Below the pieces are notes generated by a model. That model saw only the letters and a list, made by a program, of their open reading frames with translations, was not told the origin of the DNA and did not search any database. This document shows positions 1-5,513 of a DNA stretch of 64,000 nucleotides, piece after piece. The position numbers and the translations under genes are program-made. Positions within the stretch are counted from its first letter, which is position 1, and each line of letters starts with the position of its first letter. This DNA is from Gammaproteobacteria bacterium (GTDB taxonomy: Bacteria; Pseudomonadota; Gammaproteobacteria; HTCC5015): positions 1 to 64,000 of the forward strand of contig JACDDA010000003.1 in the NCBI GenBank assembly GCA_013817245.1. The letters run 5' to 3'.

Positions 1-75
1 GTCTTCTCGGCGATTGCCTCGCTGAGTGATATGGTGAGGGACTTTAGGAAATACGGCTCTGGCTTGTCTTGGCAT
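1..75 (-). CDS. REP-associated tyrosine transposase (RAYT), N-terminus only, cut by window edge
   Basis: Twenty-five codons on the minus strand, from an ATG at 73-75, run open to the left edge of the window. The peptide begins MPRQARAVFPKVPHHITQRG, followed by NRRED. This matches the very conserved N-terminus of Y1/RAYT transposases (MPR.AR...P..PHH.TQRGNRR). These HUH-type enzymes act on REP hairpins. The catalytic HUH motif and tyrosine would lie outside the window. REP-like sequence sits just upstream (96-137), as is usual for a RAYT gene. The family call rests on the N-terminal motif alone; whether the rest of the gene is intact cannot be seen. Confidence 0.75.
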   Translation of the reverse strand, partial: MPRQARAVFPKVPHHITQRGNRRED

Positions 76-95
76 AGCAGCAGCTTAACATGCAT

Positions 96-137
96 CAAAT
101 TTAAAGGGTAGCGTCCCCTTATTTTTCCCCTTATTTT
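96..137 (-). repeat. REP-like element upstream of the RAYT gene
   Basis: Read on the minus strand this contains AATAAGGGGACGCTACCC, a short GGGG...CCC imperfect hairpin, preceded by a second AATAAGGGG copy. It lies between the RAYT start (75) and the next ORF (154). A related sequence in the opposite orientation lies at 661-680 (AAGGGG, six bases, CCC). This pattern and position are typical of REP sequences associated with RAYT genes. Genome copy number cannot be judged from this window. Confidence 0.5.
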
Positions 138-660: not shown

Positions 661-680
661 TTTAAGGGGTCAGAGCCCAT
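661..680 (+). repeat. Second REP-like element, opposite orientation
   Basis: The sequence AAGGGGTCAGAGCCC at 664-678 has the same AAGGGG-six bases-CCC layout as the element at 96-137, but points the other way. The pair brackets the orphan gene at 154-549. It lies downstream of purA, in a 194-base gap that shows no other gene. The assignment rests on the shared layout, not on a copy-number search. Confidence 0.4.
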
Positions 681-4385: not shown

Positions 4386-5513
4386 CTAAGGGAAATCGCG
4401 CGAACGTGGATCATCGCGGCCATCTTGAGCGCTTACACCTGAAACACCGGATTGTTTAGACGCAGCGCCGGTGTTGCTATTAAAATTGCCAGCACGCGTA
4501 GCGTTGTCAGGTGTTGCATTTTTGTTTTTGAGGATTTGATCTAAAGGCAAATACATCATGTTGCCGCTGCCCTTCACATCCACCATCACTTTAGAACTTT
4601 TGCTTAATACTTCTTCTACCGCTTCAATATATAAACGCTCGCGTGTTACTTTCGGCGCTTTTTCATATTCGGCTAATAGTTTTAAGAAACGTGAAGTTTC
4701 ACCTTGCGCACTATTTACAATTCGCGCTTTATAACCGCGTGCTTCTTCAATATATTGTTCCGCACCACCACGCGCAACAGGAATAACTTTGTTGCGGTAA
4801 GCTTCTGCTTCACTTAAAAAGCGTTCTTTATCTTCACGCGCTTTATTTACATCTTCAAAAGACGCTTGAACTTCTTCGGGCGCTTCTGCGCGTGTCATGT
4901 TCACTTTAATTACGTTAACACCGGATTTGTAACGATCCATGATTTCTTGCAATAACACTTGGGTACGTTGCGCAATATCTTGACGGCTTTCTTTAATAAC
5001 GTAATCCAAAGTATTTTTACCGACGATTTCACGAATCGCACTTTCGCTCGCTTGGCTCAAGGTACTTTCTGGATCTTTCAAATTAAACAAAAAATCGGCG
5101 GGATCAGAAATATTAAACTGAACTTCATATTCAACATTTACGATGTTTTCATCTTTGGTCAGCATGCGCGCAGTGTTTTTCATGGTGCGATAAGAAGACA
5201 CGTCGATAATTTCACGCGATTGTACAAAGAGCGGAACCCAATGAGGGCCTGAGCCTACGGTATCCACATGGCGACCAAATTGTTTGATAACGGCGCGTTG
5301 GGTTTCATCGACGACAAAAAAGCCGAACAAGAACCATAAAGCAAAAACGACCGCTAGAATGATCATATACATTCTATTTTCGTCGTTACCGCCGCCTTTA
5401 CCGCCAAAAAAATCGCTTAGCTTGCGAAAGATTGCATCGACATCATTGGAGTTATTGGTATTACGTTTACCCCAAGGGTCTCGCGGGCTACCGCCCGGCT
5501 CATTCCAAGCCAT
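4386..5513 (-). CDS. hflK: HflK, SPFH-domain modulator of FtsH protease
   Basis: Forms the HflKC complex that regulates FtsH in the inner membrane. The 375-aa protein has the typical glycine-rich N-terminus (MAWNEPGGSPRDPWGK), a membrane segment at about residues 48-67, and an SPFH domain beginning VVDETQRAVIKQFGRHVD. A charged coiled region with the ARGYKARIVN motif and a low-complexity S/N/G-rich tail follow. Between hflX and hflK lies a 94-base gap with a GC-rich perfect palindrome (5577-5590). Confidence 0.96.
   Translation of the reverse strand: MAWNEPGGSPRDPWGKRNTNNSNDVDAIFRKLSDFFGGKGGGNDENRMYMIILAVVFALWFLFGFFVVDETQRAVIKQFGRHVDTVGSGPHWVPLFVQSREIIDVSSYRTMKNTARMLTKDENIVNVEYEVQFNISDPADFLFNLKDPESTLSQASESAIREIVGKNTLDYVIKESRQDIAQRTQVLLQEIMDRYKSGVNVIKVNMTRAEAPEEVQASFEDVNKAREDKERFLSEAEAYRNKVIPVARGGAEQYIEEARGYKARIVNSAQGETSRFLKLLAEYEKAPKVTRERLYIEAVEEVLSKSSKVMVDVKGSGNMMYLPLDQILKNKNATPDNATRAGNFNSNTGAASKQSGVSGVSAQDGRDDPRSRDFP

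Follow-up and report, generated by a model that had tools for sequence, protein, structure and literature searches.

A terminal repeat and a cut transposase gene of a probable TIRtron at the start of a gammaproteobacterial contig

The first bases of contig C3 of a gammaproteobacterial genome hold the beginning of a transposase gene and, upstream of its start codon, a repeat. A sequence-only reading had taken this locus for a RAYT gene, of a kind usually single copy, at the window edge and for the source of a many-copy REP family, and the question is to which kind of element it belongs. The window, i.e. the whole stretch of 64,000 nucleotides analysed, corresponds to bases 1-64000 of C3 in a genome of 2.27 Mb and 20 contigs. 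The location at the edge was given correctly, but the edge is that of the contig and not only of the window: window base 1 is base 1 of C3, and therefore the open reading frame at 1-75 is interrupted by the assembly. Window 1-126 probably represents the start-codon end of a single TIRtron about 0.74 kb long, in which a Y1 gene (TIRYT, or group 1 RAYT) lies between inverted copies of AATAAGGGGACGCTACCCTTT. The name TIRtron dates from 2013 (PMC3733652) and the link to TnpAY1 subclass 2.1 from 2018 (PMC6006769), and in the available text of the latter TIRYT and TIRtron are mostly placed in that subclass, equal to Bertels group 1. A literature search on these names returned PMC3733652 and PMC6006769 only.

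The gene fragment, its repeat and its partner

The features at the contig edge are listed below.

Window 1..75, minus strand: RAYT/TIRYT transposase gene, first 25 codons, start codon 75..73, cut by the contig edge
Window 97..126, minus strand: terminal inverted repeat on the start-codon side, AAAAATAAGGGGACGCTACCCTTTAAATTT, of which the exact 18-base repeat occurs also past the stop codon on contig C4
Window 106-118: GGGGACGCTACCC, within the terminal repeat
Window 104-120: stem-loop, stem AAGGG/CCCTT, 7-nt loop GACGCTA
Window 127..135, minus strand: second outer tip, AATAAGGGG, without the remainder of the repeat

The minus strand from 75 to 1 translates to MPRQARAVFPKVPHHITQRGNRRED, which is 83% identical over 24 codons (E 2.7e-6) to residues 1-24 of the relative L044, confirming the proposed RAYT N-terminus. 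The repeats claimed upstream of the start were found as well: AATAAGGGG lies on the minus strand twice, at 115-123 and 127-135, AATAAGGGGACGCTACCCTTTAAATTT is located within 97-126, and the hairpin spans 104-120. Folded as single-stranded DNA, this hairpin with its 5-bp stem was weak (z -1.93; 13 of 200 shuffles equally good). The bases flanking its two arms are ATAA or TTTA, with no GT[AG]G; the sole GTAG, on the plus strand at 107-110, straddles stem and loop. The tip, GGGGACGC, has G at base 7 and so departs from GGGGWSAS, with A at that base; in the available text of PMC3733652 this word is printed as common to some TIRs, and it is thus not strictly defining. The repeated tip at 127-135 was considered as the scar of a repeated insertion, an idea that was dropped because extra tips are only slightly enriched in 35 relatives (same-way tips, 9 against 5.6 expected on the left and 7 against 4.3 on the right; opposite-way tips, 3 against 2.0 and 1 against 1.1).

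The right end of contig C4 carries, on the minus strand, 112 C-terminal codons of a RAYT-like protein (AIRYVERNPVRAK...), including the tyrosine motif YVERNP. Past its stop codon stands the exact repeat AATAAGGGGACGCTACCC, inverted relative to the copy before the C3 start, the 18 bases being common to the C3 start side and the C4 stop side in opposite orientations. L044 (229 aa as given) aligns to the C4 piece over residues 115-225 with 59% identity, and its residues 25-114 are matched in the genome only by the other Y1 genes, three in number, which are 35-39% identical to L044 over almost its full length. Since L044 aligns to both pieces and its middle is covered only by these other genes, the C3 and C4 pieces are likely to represent one gene split by the assembly, with about 90 codons lost in the gap. 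The position of the HUH motif (59-62 in relatives) falls inside this gap and the tyrosine on C4. The remainder of the gene, which had been proposed as the place to look for the HUH motif and the tyrosine, very probably lies at the C4 end together with the matching repeat. The layout is then that of a TIRtron, with a repeat of non-GTAG type before the C3 start and its inverted copy after the C4 stop, if C3 and C4 are taken as one element.

Alternatively, the two pieces may be derived from two different truncated elements, neither of them working, with the terminal repeats left from past activity. Both pieces do stop at contig edges and the middle is absent, the same genome holds a remnant at C12:3763-3852 that matches only residues 2-31 of L044 (E 0.018), and broken copies exist in the family, 21 of the 80 loci described below having no recognised start. 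Against this stand the open and correctly oriented state of both pieces, with the same exact repeat outside, and the fact that the genome yielded no more than a single N-terminal and a single C-terminal piece of this subtype, so that we consider two dead remnants rather unlikely and retain the reading of one TIRtron.

Relatives of the transposase, their fold and the layout of the unit

Relatives were sought in GTDB genomes with six peptide patterns, one of them AIRYVERN; 130 stretches were collected, 91 were confirmed and 80 loci were kept. Judging from the record titles, these 80 loci are spread over many phyla, the best being 65% identical over the C-terminal part, and the element belongs to a little-studied kind that is present in distant bacteria. 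Among 55 related genomes searched, 13 gave a match, the window's own included (best other, 41% identical), and none was found in the three genomes of the same family. By tblastn with a relative, 25 of 72,556 plasmid records matched, all below 60% identity (37.4% for the best among 15 listed), and 1 of 50,697 phage records matched, at 33%.

The proteins of the relatives are mostly 218-232 aa in length and carry NHxH, WQ and YVERNP. Pfam identified the Y1_Tnp domain in 39 of 39 relatives, in which N59, H60, H62 and Y119 are invariant; for the tyrosine motif this follows in part from the search itself, AIRYVERN being one of its patterns. In a wider alignment, L113 and L021 are without NHxH as written, L101 has DQVH, and L115 is without the Y motif. 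An AT_hook was detected in 5 of the 39 (best E 0.013). For TnpAY1 subclass 2.1 a C-terminal tail resembling a helix-turn-helix is printed; none of the 11 Pfam families reported for the 39 at E of 1 or less is a helix-turn-helix family.

Because a search of PDB by sequence gave weak matches only (four, E 0.28-0.83, three of them IS200-type transposases), a comparison of folds was needed. The AlphaFold2 model of L044, made from the alignment of 39, reached a mean pLDDT of 91.9, and its best solved match was 4er8, in which the E. coli RAYT is in complex with a REP hairpin (Foldseek E 1.9e-7; Z 15.8, rmsd 2.5, 153 residues); TnpA of the IS200/IS605 family (IS608, ISDra2) gave Z of about 8 to 10, the best IS608 chain 9.9. 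The assignment as a RAYT-type Y1 transposase is upheld by this match. Pointing the other way, with the NCBIfam RAYT model (cut-off 80 bits) L044, L083 and L088 scored 67.3, 68.2 and 74.2, all below the cut-off, and the C4 piece 15.1.

The relatives form a uniform unit, a gene between inverted GGGGAC... ends, with a length of 720-815 bp (median 742) in 35 elements measured, L067 being excluded from this set and from the matching of ends for its mis-set right end. When the start flank was compared with the stop flank, an inverted repeat scoring 11 or higher was detected in 40 of 56 relatives and in 0 of 280 shuffled pairs, the other 16 loci scoring below 11; at 9 of the 56 loci at least one of 20 own shuffles reached 11 or 12, and the cut-off alone is no proof for a single locus. 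This test left aside 24 of the 80 loci (21 without recognised start and 3 with short flanks). In 32 of the 35 elements both ends have the same inner 9-mer, against a shuffled mean of 6.0.

The ends fall into classes, assigned by hand, that follow the transposase tree (of the quick kind, with SH-aLRT only): 21 changes of end class were counted against a shuffled mean of 35.7, with 0 of 200 shuffles as low. One group of 30 rows (support 95) takes in all 28 GACG rows, alongside two long-branched GACA rows, L074 and L082. Of the finer types, GACGTTA, GACGCAA and GACAGCC showed no clustering (all 500 shuffles were as low) and GACAGAC scarcely any (54 of 500). The left repeat is itself a hairpin in 16 of 18 loci of GACG type, 1 of 16 of GACA type and 2 of 2 of GTCA type, as judged on 36 of 53 typed loci, 17 being dropped by the motif rule. 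On the tree the hairpin trait, scored by eye for the three Y1 genes of the window's own genome, needs 5 changes against 13.0 after shuffling (0 of 500 as low), and therefore hairpins came or went several times.

Two relatives carry unusual ends. In L054 (an Inquilinus assembly; 2600-2660 and after 3348) the ends are reversed relative to the others, with AAAAAAGGTGAGCGTCCCCTTTTTT upstream of the gene, and the inverted pair is nonetheless perfect over 26 bp. At L043 3330-4120, the right end of the element carries a palindromic insert of about 150 bp, and a BrnT/BrnA-like toxin-antitoxin pair (by reading) is located between two same-way copies of GGGTAGCGTCCCC.

Boundaries, copy numbers and mini-elements

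In 13 of 15 pairs of copies, DNA similarity was lost no more than 20 bp from the tips, and in no pair did it extend past 50 bp, as judged on the first member of each pair and with a cut of 73% chosen after a first list had been seen. Three copies in one Candidatus Anammoxibacter assembly (L079, L081 and L114) are 94.8-96.4% identical and have different flanks, and L085 and L089, from two Omnitrophota assemblies, are 98.1% identical over 753 bp. For the Nitrosomonas locus L053, the genus search covered 61 genomes, 60 of them with a match, and six loci were examined, five of these from other genomes. On its left side L053 matches a locus of another genome at 98.5% identity, the match ending about 10 bp short of the GGGG tip; in this counterpart and four more loci the sequence continues through a response-regulator gene (by reading). 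The left junction of L053 is thus suggestive of insertion on sequence grounds, the right flank being different. For L068, 8 of the 29 genomes of its genus gave a match, its own genome among them, and elsewhere only short matches were found; no clean empty site was observed in either genus, nor in the comparisons L058/L059, L043/L064 and L070/L073. No target-site duplication was seen, and for the window element no movement was seen in its own genome. A 20-kb composite between two TIRs on the L053 contig was rejected, as the far TIR does not have the remainder of the broken gene next to it. In L058, a RAYT gene of the GACG type is broken at 600-735 by a short element whose ends are GGGGTCAGACTCGATTGATT; we read this from the sequence as one TIRtron family inserted into another.

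The 17-base repeat, as had been expected of it, occurs elsewhere in the window's genome, with 8 copies when up to 2 mismatches are allowed and none of the reversed pattern, and AATAAGGGGACGCTACCC is present in 3 exact copies; a few may be missed in an assembly of 20 contigs. In the 31 genomes that bear a relative, AGGGGACGCTACCCTTT with up to 2 mismatches was detected 251 times against 9 for the reversed pattern, with a median of 6 copies per genome (range 1-29). In 54 other related genomes, 9 copies in 8 genomes, one of the nine exact, stand against 19 of the reversed pattern, i.e. at background.

Short forms were found in G078, a betaproteobacterial assembly, which contains nine head-to-head pairs of the repeat 46-64 bp apart. 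The same core stands at both ends in 9 of 9 (CTA in 4, CTT in 2, CAA in 3; permutation p 0.0008), two of the nine being near-identical copies and eight coming from regions preselected for showing a pair, so that the counts describe that genome and are not a rate. Two of the pairs were folded and gave long hairpins (z -10.5 and -8.8). REPIN-like mini-elements with GGGGACG-type ends do exist.

These data bear on the view that the locus is a canonical REPtron, i.e. a domesticated RAYT that maintains a large GTAG REP family. The RAYT fold, the inverted palindromic repeats flanking the gene and the REPIN-like mini-elements in the genome of one relative are as such a system would have them, but GT[AG]G is missing at the foot of the hairpin, and the copies, 8 near ones here and at most 29 per genome elsewhere, are fewer than the usual number of REPs, over 100 per genome in the part of PMC2817692 available to us; no large REP family was seen in the 31 genomes searched. 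A canonical REPtron is therefore very improbable. The claim that this is the source locus of a many-copy REP family is likewise not supported, the repeat marking instead the two ends of a short unit. The idea that ordinary transcription terminators or mRNA structures, flanking the gene by chance, account for the hairpins can draw on the A- and T-rich sides of the GACG-type hairpins, but we give it hardly any weight, as the repeats flank the gene on either side in inverted orientation and share one 9-base core in 32 of 35 elements, 15 of 16 GACA-type ends are without such a hairpin, and DNA copies stop at these repeats.

Known systems, a possible mechanism and further repeats of the genome

We class the element as a TIRtron variant and not as a GTAG REPtron; its end motif falls outside the printed consensus, its ends are hairpins and its boundaries are documented. 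It agrees with TIRYT/TIRtron in the RAYT-like Y1 gene lying between terminal inverted repeats at similar distances, the GGGG tip, the repeat dimers elsewhere in genomes, the patchy distribution and the protein size of about 220-240 aa. It differs from what is printed, as far as the text is available, in having GGGGACG(C/T) instead of GGGGWSAS, the consensus of many TIRs, a departure at the seventh base, and the Y motif YVERNP in place of YIELNP or Y[IV]HLNP; in addition, each repeat of the GACG type is here also a hairpin in 16 of 18 cases. In the running text of the literature searched, five core end sequences were not found, and the consensus word GGGGWSAS appeared only in PMC3733652. The hairpin nature of each end in the GGGGACG type and the REPIN-like mini-elements with the same ends are apparently new.

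With the REPtron (RAYT/TnpAREP) the element shares the fold, the inverted palindromic repeats on both sides and the REPIN-like pairs; unlike it, the element has no GT[AG]G foot, has few copies and shows similarity bounded at the ends like that of an insertion sequence. The Y1 HUH fold and the small unit are shared with IS200/IS605 TnpA (IS608, ISDra2); the known members of that family are, in the available text of PMC2817692, without terminal inverted repeats, in contrast to 40 of 56 relatives here, and their Y motif is given as Y---Q (PMC6006769, also available in part), whereas it is Y---NP here, with YVERNP on C4.

As to the mechanism, the available text of PMC8266576 describes for E. coli TnpAREP, with activity tests of groups 2 and 3 only, how single-stranded REP is recognised, cut at C|T next to the hairpin and linked through a 5'-phosphotyrosine. 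By analogy, and from the fold and motifs, the enzyme would bind the terminal repeat as a folded single strand, probably while the locus is single-stranded in replication, would nick at or near the outer GGGG/CCCC tip through the tyrosine of YVERNP, and would hold a 5'-phosphotyrosine before joining the ends elsewhere. The base after CCCC is T in only 20 of 35 elements, and therefore C|T is not general here. As two inverted and matched ends are kept, it is suggested that both are used in one reaction. Short forms keeping both ends without the gene may be moved in trans. For the window element, this scheme takes the gap between C4 and C3 as an assembly gap of about 90 codons.

A wider reading, which we hold to be possible though on the unlikely side, is that TIRtrons are the living mobile forms giving rise to REP-type hairpins: in this family the terminal signal would have two states, plain (GACA) and hairpin (GACG, GTCA), the enzyme would read the two ends as partners, perhaps paired in single-stranded DNA, and so keep them matched, and short derivatives bearing both ends would lead to REPIN-like families. 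If this is true, REPs would have their origin in ordinary terminal repeats that became self-folding. The origin and spread of REPs are called poorly understood in the part of PMC8266576 available to us, and a related family whose units are clearly bounded and have matching ends, and which includes near-identical copies in different places as well as mini-elements ending alike, bears on the step from terminal repeat to REP. It also offers natural substrates for asking whether group 1 RAYTs are active transposases. The finding is useful but modest.

RAYT genes had been described as usually single copy; this genome holds three further Y1_Tnp genes, which have repeats of their own.

L002: ends GGGGTCAGACTC, 8 exact copies in the genome
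L001: ends that are a diverged form of the GGGGTCAGACTC of L002
L003 (contig C1): GGGGTCAGAGCCC upstream, 7 copies with up to one mismatch in the genome

For L003, no such repeat was found in the 250 bp downstream. The L002 and L003 genes, unlike the window copy with its departure from GGGGWSAS, do carry GGGGTCAG. A lone GGGGTCAGAGCCC is located in the window at 666-678, plus strand, about 540 bp from the element and just past purA (by reading). At C12 3659-3757 there is a mini-element of about 100 bp with GGGGTCAGACTC ends, a REPIN-like form in the window's own genome, whose arms are 93% identical over 69 bp and 100% over 28 bp to the left end of the L002 element. On C12, three Rhs-like C-terminal cassettes (by reading) open with a repeat variant, at 323-340, 2338-2355 and 5076-5093; it is AATAACGGGACGCTACCCTTTAAATTTT or a decayed form of it, at the same place in each, and the variants were probably copied along with the cassettes. 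At C10 1-152, the contig starts in the end of an IS30-like gene (by reading), and a lone exact copy of the window repeat lies a few dozen bases beyond the stop of that gene.
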